A stretch of DNA of 64,000 bases. It comes from Lignipirellula cremea. Lineage in GTDB: Bacteria; Planctomycetota; Planctomycetia; Pirellulales; Pirellulaceae. The stretch spans positions 5,561,001-5,625,000 of the forward strand of contig NZ_CP036433.1 in the NCBI RefSeq assembly GCF_007751035.1. The letters are read 5' to 3'. Shown piece by piece: positions 33,280 through 40,408 of this stretch; position 1 is the stretch's first letter; every line of letters begins with the position of its first letter. The notes below the pieces were generated by a model, which saw only the letters and a list, made by a program, of their open reading frames with translations, ran no database searches and was not told where the DNA came from. Both the position numbers and the translations under genes were made by a program.

Positions 33280-34164
33280 TTAAGGCGTTGCAGGTTTCTC
33301 CCTGGCAAAGGGCGTCAGGTTGATCGTAGAATTCAAGTTCGTCGTGAGGGCCTGCTCCGCCGAGGGGATGCTCAGCACCGCCATCACGGTCACATCGTCG
33401 CCTGGCTGCAAGCCTTCAAAGGCCCGCATGTTGAAGCTCCCGGTGTATCCAAAAACGCGCTGCTTGTCGGCTCCGTCGATCGCTACCCAGGAGGACTTGT
33501 CTTCCGCGTTTTCCGGCGCGATGCGGCCAGCAAACTGCCCCATAAGGATGAGGCTCTTCTGGGGCGAAGGGCTGAACTGCTCCGCCATTCCGGGCGGATC
33601 TTCCTGCAGCCTGGCCCGCAGTTCGTCGACGGTAAATTCTGGAACTGGCGCGCCTTTCGTATCGATGATGCGGCAGGCGACCAGGTGATGGAAGCCGCCC
33701 TCCTCTGTCAACGCTCCCCGCAGCGTTACTTCCGACCGAGGCTGGGTCTGCTTCCAGGGCTGCTCGCCGTCGGCCGCCTGGCAGACGCAAATATCGGTGC
33801 TGCCCAGTCCGCCGTTAGAGGGCGGCGCGATCGCCATAGTGAGAATTTTTTCGCCGGTAGCATCATGCACGACAACGTCGATGTTAAAAAGCTCGCCAGA
33901 AACATCCACCCAGCTTTTCGCATACCGGGCGACCTGATCGTCGCCCGCCCTGATATCTGCATAGAGTTCCGCAGCCGTCACCTTCACGATCGGCGCATCC
34001 GCGGCCGGCAGTTGAATTGCGGGCTCGTTCGCCTCATGGGGTTCTGCCACTACCGGCGCCGGCGTCTCGGTTTTCTGAGTGATCGGTTCGAACGTAGTCT
34101 TCGAATCGGTGCAGCCCGTCAGCAGCAAGAGTACTGCGGGCACGAGGAAACGAGAAGAGAACAT
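33280..34164 (-). CDS. lipoprotein with OB-fold-like domains
   Basis: A 294-residue lipoprotein: lipobox LLLLTGC (Cys about 18), a Pro/Glu-rich linker, then two beta-rich segments. The first (VTAAELYADIRAGDDQVARYAKSWVDVSGEL) resembles the tRNA_anti-like OB-fold domain found in small bacterial exported proteins; the second (about 190-275) looks similar in layout. A binding role is likely, and the ligand is unknown. The ATG at 34164 places the lipobox correctly; the frame runs open to 34275. Confidence 0.65.
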   Translation of the reverse strand: MFSSRFLVPAVLLLLTGCTDSKTTFEPITQKTETPAPVVAEPHEANEPAIQLPAADAPIVKVTAAELYADIRAGDDQVARYAKSWVDVSGELFNIDVVVHDATGEKILTMAIAPPSNGGLGSTDICVCQAADGEQPWKQTQPRSEVTLRGALTEEGGFHHLVACRIIDTKGAPVPEFTVDELRARLQEDPPGMAEQFSPSPQKSLILMGQFAGRIAPENAEDKSSWVAIDGADKQRVFGYTGSFNMRAFEGLQPGDDVTVMAVLSIPSAEQALTTNLNSTINLTPFAREKPATP

Positions 34165-34404
34165 GACGCCATTCCTTGTACGATTTGACGCTGGTAAGAG
34201 AACCCGCCGCGACGGGGGTCTGCCAGAGCCATGATCGTAATGCCTGTCGGGCCGCGCCGCCACTTGCGTCCGCAAGAATGCCGATATTTACCGCCGCCCA
34301 ATTTCGGACGGTTCAGGAAAGAGGTGAATTAAGGGCGAAGAGAATGAGCTTGCGCATGGCCCCCGTCCTTCCCGGCCGTCTACCCGATAGATCTGGCCGA
34401 ACAT

Positions 34405-34460: not shown

Positions 34461-37400
34461 CTAGAGAGCTTCCAGAATCCCGGCGCCAAAGGTGAATCCG
34501 CCGCCAAAAGCGCACAGCCCGAGGCGATCGCCTTTTTTGCTCGCCGGCAACACGTCGGCCAGACACAAGGGAATGCTGGAGGACGAAGTATTGCCGTGCG
34601 TCCGGATGTTACTGAACACCTCGGTCTGAATACGATTGCCGATGGCGTTCATGATCCGCTGGTTCGCCTGGTGCGGCACGACCAGGTTCAGGGCCTCGAC
34701 GCCCATCCCTTCGCGTCCGCAGACACGGGTCAGACTGCCGACCATGGTGCGGACCGCTTCGCTGAACACTTTGCGACCGTGCATCTGAATGTAGCCTTCC
34801 CGCAGCAGCGGCACTGTCAGGGCCGAGCCGCTGTCGCCTTTGGCGGACAACTCGGGACGGAACAGCTTCCCCTGGGCATGGGACATGCAGCCTTCGCCGT
34901 ACAGGATCGAAGCCGAAGCGGCGTCGCCAAACAGAATTGCCGTGTCAAAGTCGTTCGGGTCGAGCAGGGGCGAAAGCACCTCGGCCGTAACGATCAGCAC
35001 TTTGCCGTCCGGCTTGCTCTGCAGGTAGTCATAGCCTGACTGCAGGGCGTAAAGGTAGCCACTGCAGGCCGCGTTGATATCGAAGGCCTGAAGCATGGCC
35101 CCCGACGTTTTCCCACGCGACAAACCGGCCAGAACCTGGCAGGCCATCGAAGGGGTGACCGAGTTGGGGCTGGTGGTGGTGCAGATCACCAGATCCAGAT
35201 CATCGGGGATCAGGTTCTCGCGGTCGAGCGCTTCCCAGCTGGCTTTGACGGCCATGCCAATGGCGTCTTCCTGGGTGTTGATCCACTGGCGGGATTCAAT
35301 GCCGGTGCGACGGACGATGTCCTCCGCCGTCATCTGGCCCGAGTTGCCCAGCAGGGCCAGCAGTTCTTCATTACCGATAGTGCGTGAGCCTTCCAGGGCG
35401 GCGATCGACGACACGCCGACTTCGAACTGGCGGATCTCGGTCGTCCGTCGCGGCACGCGCAACCGTTCCCGGCTGGGCTTGCGGGTCAGCACCGGTTCGC
35501 CAGGCAATTCCTGCGTAACGGGCTTGATACGACGTTCGGCAGCCGGCAATCGCACCCGCATCAGCGGGGCGCCAACGGCCACGGTGTCCCCTTCGGAGAC
35601 GAGGATTTCTTCCAGCATGCCAGAAACGGGCGAGGTGATCTCAAACACGCTTTTGGTCGCTTCCAGCGAAGCCACGGCGTCGCCGCGTTCCACGCGGGCG
35701 CCCGATTTGACGAGCAGATCAACGACCAGCACGCTTTCGTCGGCGGGACCACTGCCGATCGCTTCGATCATGGCCGAGCCGGCTTCCGGGACCGGCGGGG
35801 CGATCCAGCTCAGGTCCAGCGACAGCAGCTCGGCGGCCGTGGTCAGCACGCGGCGGAACGAAGGCAGCACTTCCAGCTGGTTCGCAAAGTTGCACGGCAC
35901 AAAAGTGTCAGGACGTGTCACTCGGCGAATGGCGACCGGCACGCGGGTCTTCTCGGCGACAGTGGCGGAGATTTCCGCTCCCAGCCCGCAGGTATGGTTG
36001 TCTTCGTGCACGACCACCAGATGGGCCGTTTTCTCTGCTGAGGCGATGACCGCGTGCTCGTCCCAGGGGGACAACGTTCGCAGATCCAGGATCTCGGACT
36101 CCACGCCGACTGCTTCCAGCGCTTGGGCCGCTTTTTCGCACAGCTTGATCGTATTGCCCCAGGAGACGAACGTCACATCGCGACCGCTGCGCACCTTGCG
36201 GGCGGGACCGATCGGGGTGAACTGGTCAGCGACAAGGGCCGGCGTGCGATTGGCTGGGTCGTTGAGCAGGCTCTTGGGATACAGGAACAGCGTCGGCCGT
36301 TCCGAAGCAAAGGCCGCATTGAGCAGGCCGGCTGCATCGGAAGCGGTTGAAGGCATAAACACATCGACGCCTGGCGTATGGGTCAGCAGCGACTCAAACG
36401 ACTGGGCATGGAACGGTCCCAGCCCCGGACGCAGTCCGCCGCAGGCCGCCATCACAATCACCGGCGACGACCAGCCGCCGTCAGAACGCCAGTGCATGCT
36501 GGCCATTTCCGACACAATCTGGTTGTAGGCCAGCGGCATGAAGTCGGCAAACTGCAGGAACGCCACCGGCCGTTCGCCGGCCAGAGCCCGACCGATCGAG
36601 AAACCCAGAATCGTCGATTCGGTCAACGGCGCATTTTTCACCCGGGCGCCGAACTGCGTCGTCAGCCCTTTCGTTACGCCAAAGACGTCCCCTTTAGGAT
36701 CTTCAATATCCTGTCCGAACAGCGACACGCGGGCGTCGTCCTGCAGGTGGTTCCGCAACACCTCGCGGAGCGCTTCCCGCATGGTCAGGGCAGGGGCGCC
36801 TTCGCCATGGTTTTCTCGCGAAGGATGGGTCAACTCGACCGAGATCGCTTTCTTGGCGTCGAAAATGGGCGCCGGCTCAGGTCCCGCGATGGCGTCTTCT
36901 TCCGCCTGGCGGACTTCCTTCTGTACGGATTTCTCGATCGCGGCCAGTTCTTCCTCGGACAGACCCTGCTGGAGCAGATGGCTGCGGAAGTTAAACAGCG
37001 GATCGCTGCCGTCGGCGGCGGCGAGAATCTCTTCCTGCTCGCGATACTGGGTCTGATCGTCGGCGTTGGTATGGTTGTCAAGCCGCTCGACGTCGAGCAC
37101 GATCACCACGGGGCGCCGGTCCTGGCGCATTTGCGCGACGACGTCGCCCACGACCTGGTTCACGGCGACCACATCGCGTCCGTCGACCCGGTGAATGGGC
37201 ATGCCGTAGAACTCGTCGGCGTCGCCGTCCGGTCGCGAATAGAACGTATTGCCGCGGGTCTGGGTGGAAATGGCGTAGCGATTGTCTTCCACAAAGAAGA
37301 GCACAGGCAGCGTGCTGCGCACAGCTTCCGCGCAGGCTTCCAGGAATTCGCCCTGTTGGCTGGTGCCGTCGCCGACGCTGCAGAGTACGACCGGAGAGCC

Positions 37401-37802
37401 CTCGCGCTCGCGAACCGCGGCTGCAACGCCTGCCGCCTGGAGGGCGCTATTGCCGACGGGGCCGACGATACTCAACAGGTGCAGCTCGGGCGAACTCATA
37501 TGGGCGCTCATCTGGCGCCCACGGGAATGCGAGGCGTCTTTGCACAGCGAAGCGTCAAAAAAGTCCTTCGCCGTCAATCCGCGCGCCAGCATCAGGGCCT
37601 TGTCGCGATAGTGGCAATGCAACCAGTCATGTTCGTTCAAATGCAAGGCCAGGCAAGCCGAACTTTCATGTCCCGCACCGGAGACATGAAAGAATGCTTC
37701 CCCGCGATTGGTCAGTTCCCGCTCGACCCGATCCACGCACCGAGCCGCATACATTGCTCGGTACAAATGCTTCAGATCCTGCAAATCCATGGCGCCGCTC
37801 AC
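34461..37802 (-). CDS. 2-oxoacid dehydrogenase E1 alpha-beta / lipoyl / KAS III fusion
   Basis: A 1113-residue four-part enzyme. Residues about 10-330 are E1 alpha (HYRDKALMLARG, and the TPP motif GDGTSQQGEF...EDNRYAIS with Gly144-Asp145-Gly146 and Asn174). About 338-665 are E1 beta (LFGQDIEDPKGDVFGVTKGL, HAQSFE with His465, VVHEDNHTCGLGAE). About 676-752 are a lipoyl/biotinyl domain with Lys717 in LEATKSVFEI, lipoyl-type rather than the AMKM of biotin. About 792-1113 are a FabH-like ketosynthase with Cys913 (NAACSG), His1044 (VPHQANQRIM) and Asn1071 (THGNTSSSS). No E2 acyltransferase or subunit-binding domain exists. Predicted role: oxidative decarboxylation of a 2-oxo acid and direct acyl hand-off to KAS III for chain priming. 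The GTG at 37802 or ATG at 37790 may be the start. Confidence 0.92.
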   Translation of the reverse strand: MSGAMDLQDLKHLYRAMYAARCVDRVERELTNRGEAFFHVSGAGHESSACLALHLNEHDWLHCHYRDKALMLARGLTAKDFFDASLCKDASHSRGRQMSAHMSSPELHLLSIVGPVGNSALQAAGVAAAVREREGSPVVLCSVGDGTSQQGEFLEACAEAVRSTLPVLFFVEDNRYAISTQTRGNTFYSRPDGDADEFYGMPIHRVDGRDVVAVNQVVGDVVAQMRQDRRPVVIVLDVERLDNHTNADDQTQYREQEEILAAADGSDPLFNFRSHLLQQGLSEEELAAIEKSVQKEVRQAEEDAIAGPEPAPIFDAKKAISVELTHPSRENHGEGAPALTMREALREVLRNHLQDDARVSLFGQDIEDPKGDVFGVTKGLTTQFGARVKNAPLTESTILGFSIGRALAGERPVAFLQFADFMPLAYNQIVSEMASMHWRSDGGWSSPVIVMAACGGLRPGLGPFHAQSFESLLTHTPGVDVFMPSTASDAAGLLNAAFASERPTLFLYPKSLLNDPANRTPALVADQFTPIGPARKVRSGRDVTFVSWGNTIKLCEKAAQALEAVGVESEILDLRTLSPWDEHAVIASAEKTAHLVVVHEDNHTCGLGAEISATVAEKTRVPVAIRRVTRPDTFVPCNFANQLEVLPSFRRVLTTAAELLSLDLSWIAPPVPEAGSAMIEAIGSGPADESVLVVDLLVKSGARVERGDAVASLEATKSVFEITSPVSGMLEEILVSEGDTVAVGAPLMRVRLPAAERRIKPVTQELPGEPVLTRKPSRERLRVPRRTTEIRQFEVGVSSIAALEGSRTIGNEELLALLGNSGQMTAEDIVRRTGIESRQWINTQEDAIGMAVKASWEALDRENLIPDDLDLVICTTTSPNSVTPSMACQVLAGLSRGKTSGAMLQAFDINAACSGYLYALQSGYDYLQSKPDGKVLIVTAEVLSPLLDPNDFDTAILFGDAASASILYGEGCMSHAQGKLFRPELSAKGDSGSALTVPLLREGYIQMHGRKVFSEAVRTMVGSLTRVCGREGMGVEALNLVVPHQANQRIMNAIGNRIQTEVFSNIRTHGNTSSSSIPLCLADVLPASKKGDRLGLCAFGGGFTFGAGILEAL

Positions 37803-38179: not shown

Positions 38180-40408
38180 ATGCGGAAATACAGCTTTTTA
38201 GTGGCGCTGGCCACAGTGCTGTTTTGTTGCTCCCGCAGCCAGGCGCAACTTTTCGGGTCCCGCTTCATGGGGGGAATGCCCCAGGCCCAGGCGCCTTCGG
38301 ACCCGCCGCCGCTGCAGCCTTCGACGATCATGCCGCGGGAGAATCCAGCGGCCCAGCCCGGTGTCGCATCGCCCCCGACGATCTACACCCCCAGCAATCC
38401 GGCCGCTGGCTACCCGGCAGCGAGCCAGGCGCCGACCGCGTTCCAGAACCCGCCCCCCTACGGCACGACCGGCGGCGTTCCCCCGGCAAACGGCAATGCT
38501 GCAGCGGCAGCCCCCGCAGCCCCGGCTCGAGGCTGGAGCTTCCCGTTCTCGGCAGCCAACTTCCTGCCATTCCAGGGGCAGGCGGCGGCCGCACCGCCGA
38601 CGGCTGGACCCGCCACGCCTCCGCCGGCCGCTTATCGCAATCCGCCCACAGCGGCCAACATTACGCCAGCCAGCGGTCCGCTGCCGGGTGCGATGTCGGG
38701 AACGATGCGCTCGCCGGCCCAGACCGCCGTGTCAGCGAATGCCGGCCCCCAGCAGCCTGTGGTGACGCGGCAAACGCGGATGATCATTCCTTATGTGAAT
38801 CCGGTGGGAGCCGTACCGATTGAGATGCAGCTGTTTGTCTCGGTCGATTCCGGGCGGACGTGGAACCTGCAGTCGCGTAATCGGCCCGATGCCGGACAGT
38901 TTGAGTTTGCGGCTGCCGGCGACGGCGAATACTGGTTTGCCTTGCATACCCTGACGGAAGTGAACCGCGCGCAGACGCCGGCGACGTTCCAGCCGGAACT
39001 GATCGTCAAGATCGACACGGCGGCGCCCCAGGTGGATTTTGTCGCGGAGAGCGGCTCTTCCGGCGAACTACGCGTTCGCTGGAATGTGGTCGACCCGAAC
39101 CTGGATCCGACCCTGCTCCGCCTCGAATACCAGGGCGTCGGAGAACCCAACTGGCGTCCCGTCGCCATTGACCCAGCCGCCACCAGCCAGGGCATGTCCC
39201 AGGGGCAAACGGCCTGGCTGCCGCAGGCCGCGGGCCAGGCAATGAACGTGCGCTTGCATGCAGTGGATCTGGCGGGGAACCCCACGGTGGTGCATCGCCG
39301 CGTGTTGCTGCAGCCTGTGAATACGGGTCAGGCTCCCGCCAACACGAACCCGCCGCTGTTGACCCCGCCGTCGCTGGGCAGCGCGCCCTGGCCCGCAGGA
39401 GAATCCGCCCCGCTGGCAGGTTCCGCCTATGGAACCGCGCCCGGCGCAACGGGAGCGGCGATGGCAGGCGCCGTCCCGCCAGCGATTGGCGCAACAGGCG
39501 CCGCCGCGACCACCTGGGCCCCCAATCACCAGGCCACGGGAACGCCTTTGGAAACGAATGGACCGAGCGCATCGCTCGGCGCGGAACCGCAAAAGTTTCC
39601 CGAGGCAACTTCTGCGGTCTGGGGCGCGGCCCCCAGCCAGGTGCATCCCGCGGTCGGCAGTCAGGCCGATGCGGCGCGGACGAGCGGTTTGGATCGCCCC
39701 CCGGTCGGAGCCAGGGCGCCGCAACCGCCGCGCAGCGAAGGGCTGCAGGCAACGCGGTTGCGCGAGTTCAATCTGGAATACGATGTGGAAGCGGTCGGGC
39801 CGACAGGGGTGAAAAAGGTGGAGCTATGGTTCACCCGCGACGGCGGCGCCTCCTGGGCGCACCTGAGCGACGACGACGATCTGAAGAGTCCGATCCACGT
39901 CGAAGTCGACCGCGAGGGGACGTATGGCTTTACCATTGTGGCGACGGCCGGCAGCGGGCTGGCGGGTCGCCGGCCTGCCTCAGGCGATGCTCCCGACGCC
40001 TGGATCGCTGTCGATCTGACTCCGCCGCAGGTAGAGATTGTTTCGGCCCCCTACGGCGATGGCGAACAGGCCGGGCAGCTGGTGATCCAATGGGTGGCGC
40101 GGGACGAACGGCTGGCCGATCGACCAATCACCTTGTATTACGCGGAGCGGCCGTCCGGTCCCTGGTCGATTATCGCCTCAGGGCTGGCAAATACCGGCTC
40201 TTACGCCTGGGCGGTCGATTCCAATAGCCCGCGTAAAGTGCATCTGAAAGTGGAAGTGCGCGACAAGGCCGGCCATATGGCGACCGCCGTCACGCCGGAG
40301 GTTGTGTCCCTGGAAGGCCTTGTGCCGAAGGCGCGGGTTCGCGGACTGGCGGAACCGGCAGAGACCACGGGAATGATCAGCAACCCGTATTACTTGCAGC
40401 GCCGGTAG
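38180..40408 (+). CDS. secreted Pro/Ala-rich protein with Asp-box-like beta domains
   Basis: A 742-residue exported protein (signal peptide 1-22, ending SQAQ). A long Pro/Ala/Gln-rich region (23-190) is followed by beta-sandwich-like modules (about 192-380 and 525-735) separated by a second low-complexity linker. Asp-box-type turns are visible (SVDSGRTWN, TRDGGASWAHL), along with repeated DLTPPQVEIV and DTAAPQVDFV strands that start Ig/FN3-like modules. It is probably a structural or adhesive envelope protein. No enzyme motif is seen. Confidence 0.7.
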   Translation: MRKYSFLVALATVLFCCSRSQAQLFGSRFMGGMPQAQAPSDPPPLQPSTIMPRENPAAQPGVASPPTIYTPSNPAAGYPAASQAPTAFQNPPPYGTTGGVPPANGNAAAAAPAAPARGWSFPFSAANFLPFQGQAAAAPPTAGPATPPPAAYRNPPTAANITPASGPLPGAMSGTMRSPAQTAVSANAGPQQPVVTRQTRMIIPYVNPVGAVPIEMQLFVSVDSGRTWNLQSRNRPDAGQFEFAAAGDGEYWFALHTLTEVNRAQTPATFQPELIVKIDTAAPQVDFVAESGSSGELRVRWNVVDPNLDPTLLRLEYQGVGEPNWRPVAIDPAATSQGMSQGQTAWLPQAAGQAMNVRLHAVDLAGNPTVVHRRVLLQPVNTGQAPANTNPPLLTPPSLGSAPWPAGESAPLAGSAYGTAPGATGAAMAGAVPPAIGATGAAATTWAPNHQATGTPLETNGPSASLGAEPQKFPEATSAVWGAAPSQVHPAVGSQADAARTSGLDRPPVGARAPQPPRSEGLQATRLREFNLEYDVEAVGPTGVKKVELWFTRDGGASWAHLSDDDDLKSPIHVEVDREGTYGFTIVATAGSGLAGRRPASGDAPDAWIAVDLTPPQVEIVSAPYGDGEQAGQLVIQWVARDERLADRPITLYYAERPSGPWSIIASGLANTGSYAWAVDSNSPRKVHLKVEVRDKAGHMATAVTPEVVSLEGLVPKARVRGLAEPAETTGMISNPYYLQRR

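Follow-up and report, generated by a model that had tools for sequence, protein, structure and literature searches.

What does an enzyme do that carries, in one polypeptide chain, the α and β parts of a 2-oxo-acid dehydrogenase E1, a lipoyl domain and a complete KAS III (FabH)? The question is raised by a gene in the window analyzed here, a 64,000-nucleotide stretch of the genome of Lignipirellula cremea. Fatty-acid synthesis normally starts from acyl-CoA and malonyl-ACP. The gene suggests another way of starting, in which the acyl group would pass from E1 to the KAS cysteine on a tethered lipoyl arm. We describe the gene and its relatives, what its parts imply about the reaction, and how it compares with systems that are already known.

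The gene and its domains

The reading frame is open on the reverse strand from 34461 to 37802, 1113 codons without a stop, and continues as far as a GTG at 37802. Translation probably starts at the ATG at 37790, because homologues begin at the residue corresponding to Met5, conserved without exception in 12 genera; the product would then have 1109 residues. The order of parts is E1α, E1β, lipoyl domain, KAS III (Table 1). The open reading frame and the Pfam domains agree with the original prediction of a four-domain frame of 1113 residues, and Pfam and NCBIfam together bear the architecture out. The residues that it had named (Gly144–Asp145–Gly146, Asn174, His465, Lys717, Cys913, His1044 and Asn1071) are all where it had placed them. 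The KAS III part lies barely above the cut-off of its FabH subfamily (249 bits). Pfam finds neither an E2 catalytic domain (PF00198) nor a subunit-binding domain in the protein, as had also been claimed.

Table 1. Features of the fusion gene (window coordinates; residues numbered on the 1113-codon frame)
Feature	Position	Strand	Basis
Complete fusion gene, E1α–E1β–lipoyl–KAS III	34461..37790	(-)	Start: probable ATG at 37790
E1α, residues 14–312, TPP motif GDG 144–146...Asn174	36867..37763	(-)	Pfam E1_dh, 5.5e-48; best solved relative Thermus branched-chain E1α, 1um9_A
E1β pyrimidine-binding domain, residues 339–514, with His465	36261..36788	(-)	Pfam Transket_pyr
E1β C-terminal domain, residues 533–644	35871..36206	(-)	Pfam Transketolase_C
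Lipoyl domain, residues 689–749	35556..35738	(-)	Pfam Biotin_lipoyl, 8.1e-14; all-beta in the model
Lys717, predicted lipoyl-lysine, motif EATKS	35652..35654	(-)	Lys and Glu714 invariant, 79/79
KAS III (FabH) domain, residues 793–1113	34464..35426	(-)	NF006829, 249.6 bits; Pfam ACP_syn_III (907–970) and ACP_syn_III_C (1030–1111); Foldseek FabH, target-normalized TM-score ~0.9
Cys913, KAS nucleophile	35064..35066	(-)	79/79
His1044, KAS catalytic His	34671..34673	(-)	79/79
Asn1071, KAS catalytic Asn (decarboxylative type)	34590..34592	(-)	78/79, one gap
Asp828, position of E. coli FabH Trp32	35319..35321	(-)	Trp absent from all 79 fusions, present in 13/13 stand-alone planctomycete FabHs

An AlphaFold2 model built from a 79-row alignment has a mean pLDDT of 88.9, with low values confined to the ends and linkers (the N-terminus, and the linker at 778–789 that precedes KAS III). 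In Foldseek, parts of the model match structures of E1β and of FabH, with target-normalized TM-scores of about 0.9, and the model also matches OdhA/KGD over some 800 columns. The adjoining frames in the window, 33280–34275 (-) and 38180–40408 (+), have no Pfam match; the former is lipoprotein-like.

Distribution and inheritance

Scanning 84,980 species genomes yielded 504 relatives, of which the best 80 were kept. All but two of the 80 are full-length single frames without stops, 47–67% identical; conservation is counted here over 79 sequences, these 78 and the copy in the window. Carriers occur in at least nine phyla: Planctomycetota, Verrucomicrobiota, Kiritimatiellota, Lentisphaerota, Spirochaetota, Pseudomonadota (Devosia, a betaproteobacterium and Caedibacter), Cyanobacteriota, Myxococcota and Sumerlaeota. 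Most are metagenome-assembled genomes (MAGs), but the set also includes a complete chromosome (CP043547) and an isolate, Devosia insulae. The residues His465 (E1), Glu714 and Lys717 (lipoyl), and Cys913 and His1044 (KAS) are identical in all 79, and Asn1071 is kept in every sequence but one, which is gapped there.

It had been foreseen that an assembly error or frameshift might have joined separate genes artificially. Nothing speaks for this: among relatives of the host, 1 of the 15 carriers (G015) consists of two overlapping frames, which is itself probably a sequencing frameshift. The same frame is open, at full length, at 78 loci in other, independent assemblies, including the complete genome CP043547, and we regard the artefact as refuted, its chance of being right being negligible. 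Absence from close relatives, which would likewise have told against the prediction, was not what we found. Within the same family, 13 of 24 genomes—about half of the sampled genera—carry the fusion (12 as a single frame, one as two overlapping frames). The profile over the rest of the order gave 2 carriers in 15 genomes. In an even sample of 294 genomes from the whole phylum just 3 score, so the gene is patchy outside the family.

Pairwise distances in the E1 and KAS parts correlate at 0.82, against a permutation maximum of 0.11, the pattern expected of one fusion that has been inherited or transferred as a unit. In a tree of E1 sequences the fusions form one group, beside E1α–β proteins of other planctomycetes and of Streptomyces. 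The nearest non-fused relatives in planctomycetes (L120–L124) are E1α–β fusion proteins, each followed by an E2-type gene with a weakly scoring catalytic domain.

A proposed route from 2-oxo acid to 3-oxoacyl-ACP

From the domains and residues we propose the following reaction. The fused E1 would decarboxylate a 2-oxo acid, most likely a branched-chain one, on thiamine diphosphate and reductively acylate the lipoyl arm at Lys717. The arm, on flexible linkers, would swing to KAS III and hand the acyl group to Cys913, and condensation with malonyl-ACP would give 3-oxoacyl-ACP for fatty-acid or polyketide synthesis. Dihydrolipoyl dehydrogenase would re-oxidize the arm in trans, and priming would require neither E2 nor acyl-CoA. 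We hold this reading of a one-chain priming enzyme with a little more confidence than doubt. The architecture, its conservation as a unit and the absence of E2 parts are read directly from the sequence; the lipoylation, the direct transfer from lipoyl to KAS, the condensation and the substrate we infer from them.

The E2 genes of the host bear on the first step. Its complete genome has two full-length E2s, one adjoining AceE and the other SucB, with SucA elsewhere. There is no other α/β-type E1 in the host genome, and no E2 gene at the fusion locus. Both full-length E2s go with AceE and SucA, which leaves the E1 of the fusion without an E2 of its own and with its tethered arm as the one evident outlet. 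The evident acceptor, in turn, is the KAS III to which it is fused. Outside the window, a 317-residue frame (C1:8685425–8686150) has two weak, fragmentary matches to the E2 catalytic domain (PF00198).

The arm itself has the lipoyl-lysine motif E-x-(D/T)-K-(A/S). EADKA occurs in 35 of the 79 sequences, EATKS in 28, and variants in the others; the motif is never MKM, and a biotin carboxyl carrier was rejected on this ground. Of 27 genomes with the fusion, 25 have a lipoyl synthase that scores above the cut-off. In a Kiritimatiellia MAG, a lipoate–protein ligase (LplA) gene on the same strand immediately precedes the fusion (L077:8728–9804). Lys717 is thus presumably lipoylated.

The KAS III domain offers a clue to the source of its acyl group. 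In E. coli FabH, Trp32 stacks on the adenine of CoA. Its position is occupied by Asp or another non-Trp residue in all 79 fusions, and by Trp in 13 of 13 stand-alone FabHs from planctomycete genomes. Loss of this Trp would be expected if free acyl-CoA had ceased to be the donor for the KAS, although a single residue is not proof. Arg151, the other side of the CoA adenine sandwich, is also absent from all 79; it varies in planctomycete stand-alone FabHs too, and was dropped as a marker, leaving the Trp comparison alone informative. Planctomycete stand-alone FabHs likewise vary at the pocket residue aligned with E. coli Phe87 (Thr883 in the fusion), which was therefore dropped as a guide to the substrate.

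These observations weigh on a more conventional reading, that an ordinary branched-chain dehydrogenase and a FabH have simply been joined. The arm would then dock in a separate (PDH) E2, acyl-CoA would be released, and FabH would take it up from solution. E2s are indeed present in every genome examined. But the protein lacks a subunit-binding domain and has no dedicated E2, the Trp for CoA adenine is missing throughout, and one ancient fusion has been kept intact over nine phyla; we consider this reading improbable. Conversely, the proposed route from E1 to lipoyl arm to KAS cysteine, as originally predicted, gains support because the unit is conserved across phyla, the Trp is lost, and no E2 is dedicated to it.

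Whether KAS III condenses, or only transfers, is a separate matter. It could be a loader that transfers the acyl group from lipoyl to ACP phosphopantetheine, making acyl-ACP for a dedicated pathway. The KAS III of the dnacin cluster (DinQ/NapE) has been proposed to load a C2 unit on ACP, beside the NapB/NapD two-component system (PMC7570522), and the Streptomyces relatives described below apparently load ACP via a lipoyl-E2. Against this, the decarboxylating Cys–His–Asn triad is present in every ungapped sequence, and the domain scores as FabH rather than as any loader subfamily. We think a loader unlikely, if worth keeping in mind. Under the preferred reading, of a condensing enzyme, the fusion would be a specialized initiator, since stand-alone FabH coexists with it in fusion genomes.

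The substrate is the least certain element. E1α scores 151 bits against the Thermus branched-chain E1, 116 against human BCKDH and 99 against human PDH; E1β is less discriminating in comparison with solved relatives. We lean, with low certainty, toward branched-chain 2-oxo acids. Alternatively, a ketose phosphate might supply a C2 unit to the TPP part, with glycolyl carried on the arm, as in NapB/NapD and QncN/QncL. The same parts (TPP domains, lipoyl domain and a KAS III beside an ACP) are found together in the dnacin cluster, the scleric acid cluster being without KAS III. Yet the fusion has a full E1α–E1β with His244 and His465 invariant, its E1α is closest to a branched-chain E1, and in its sister clade E1-type proteins are followed by E2 or lipoyl-E2. 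A ketose-fed loader therefore seems very doubtful.

The original prediction spoke of branched-chain or other unusual lipids. A bulk branched-lipid role is not favored: Stieleria, of the same family (Pirellulaceae), has mainly straight-chain fatty acids, in strains that may not carry the fusion (PMC12254169). The product is therefore more likely to be a minor or specialized lipid than one of the bulk membrane. The neighbors of the fusion differ between phyla, and among them we find no conserved lipid operon or recurring lipid genes; assigning a function from the operon was abandoned for this reason. In eight Pirellulaceae genomes the fusion is followed immediately, with the same orientation and mostly after 6–21 bases, by a gene for a tandem bacterial-microcompartment shell protein (PF00936, 208–233 residues; L032:13325–13951, and the same place in L034, L036, L037, L038, L040, L042 and L048). 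The window's genome also has a gene of this kind, though not at the fusion but at C1:1549965.

Comparison with known systems

Taken more broadly, the fusion may represent a widespread, uncharacterized and CoA-independent start of acyl chains, from 2-oxo acid to 3-oxoacyl-ACP on one polypeptide, with KAS III fed by a lipoyl thioester; on this our belief is evenly balanced. If true, an enzyme conserved across nine phyla would add a second mode of chain initiation, tying the oxidation of 2-oxo acids to lipid or polyketide synthesis without CoA. It would also provide a compact, single-chain starter module for engineering.

The original prediction knew of no characterized enzyme of this architecture. 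We too found the fusion described nowhere, in a literature search with most subscription journals outside its coverage, but precedents had been missed (NapB/NapD/NapE, QncN/QncL/QncM and SclQ1–4). Loading of a C2 unit by NapB/NapD was reportedly the subject of work in PNAS in 2012. The scleric acid (SclQ1–4) and quinocarcin (QncN/QncL/QncM) systems comprise an E1-type enzyme, a lipoyl-acyltransferase and an ACP, and transfer C2 to ACP without CoA. The dnacin and naphthyridinomycin clusters do so with an E1-type enzyme, a lipoyl domain, KAS III and ACP (PMC7570522 for dnacin).

All of these loaders (NapB/NapD/NapC/NapE, QncN/QncL/QncM, DinU/DinS/DinT/DinQ and SclQ1–4) resemble the fusion in their TPP E1/transketolase-type domains, their lipoyl domain and, as proposed for the fusion, CoA-free transfer to ACP; the nap and din clusters, like the fusion, include KAS III. 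They differ from it in being separate proteins of a cluster, for tetrahydroisoquinoline antibiotics or scleric acid, with a ketose donor and no condensation claimed, whereas the fusion is one chain. Two of them, QncL and SclQ4, include an acyltransferase domain of the E2 type, whereas the fusion has no PF00198 match.

Closer in sequence are clusters on Streptomyces plasmids, in which E1α–β is followed by a megasynthase (L118:14920–32055, L119:14878–31908 and L148:7920–17920). In L118 and L119, which from their neighbors we judge to be streptogramin-like, the E1α–β is 37–39% identical to that of the fusion and the megasynthase begins lipoyl–E2–ACP–KS. It is annotated merely as an NRPS, and apparently has a built-in CoA-free loading module. 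As proposed for the fusion, a related E1α–β would feed a lipoyl arm that leads on to carrier-bound synthesis; unlike the fusion, with its KAS III and no E2 in one protein, these systems keep the E2 catalytic domain and have a PKS-type KS, in two proteins. Direct passage from E1 through a lipoyl arm to carrier-bound synthesis thus has precedents, in these megasynthases and in the nap, din, scl and qnc loaders. What appears to be new, and undescribed as a fusion, is that KAS III belongs to the same single chain, that E2 has been lost, and that the gene is widespread beyond natural-product clusters.

The fusion shares with the branched-chain 2-oxo-acid dehydrogenase complex (Thermus E1, 1um9; human BCKDH) the E1 fold, TPP motif, active-site His and lipoyl arm. 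It differs in that its E1 subunits are fused, the catalytic and subunit-binding domains of E2 are absent, and a fused KAS III is the putative acyl acceptor. With FabH it shares the fold, Cys–His–Asn and the ACP-contact Arg (Arg1049), the differences being that its KAS is fused and without the CoA-adenine Trp. Finally, actinobacterial OdhA (the E2–E1 two-in-one 2-oxoglutarate dehydrogenase), one of the Foldseek matches, is likewise a rearrangement of dehydrogenase parts in a single chain. Unlike the fusion, OdhA keeps E2 catalysis and makes succinyl-CoA (PMC10415282).
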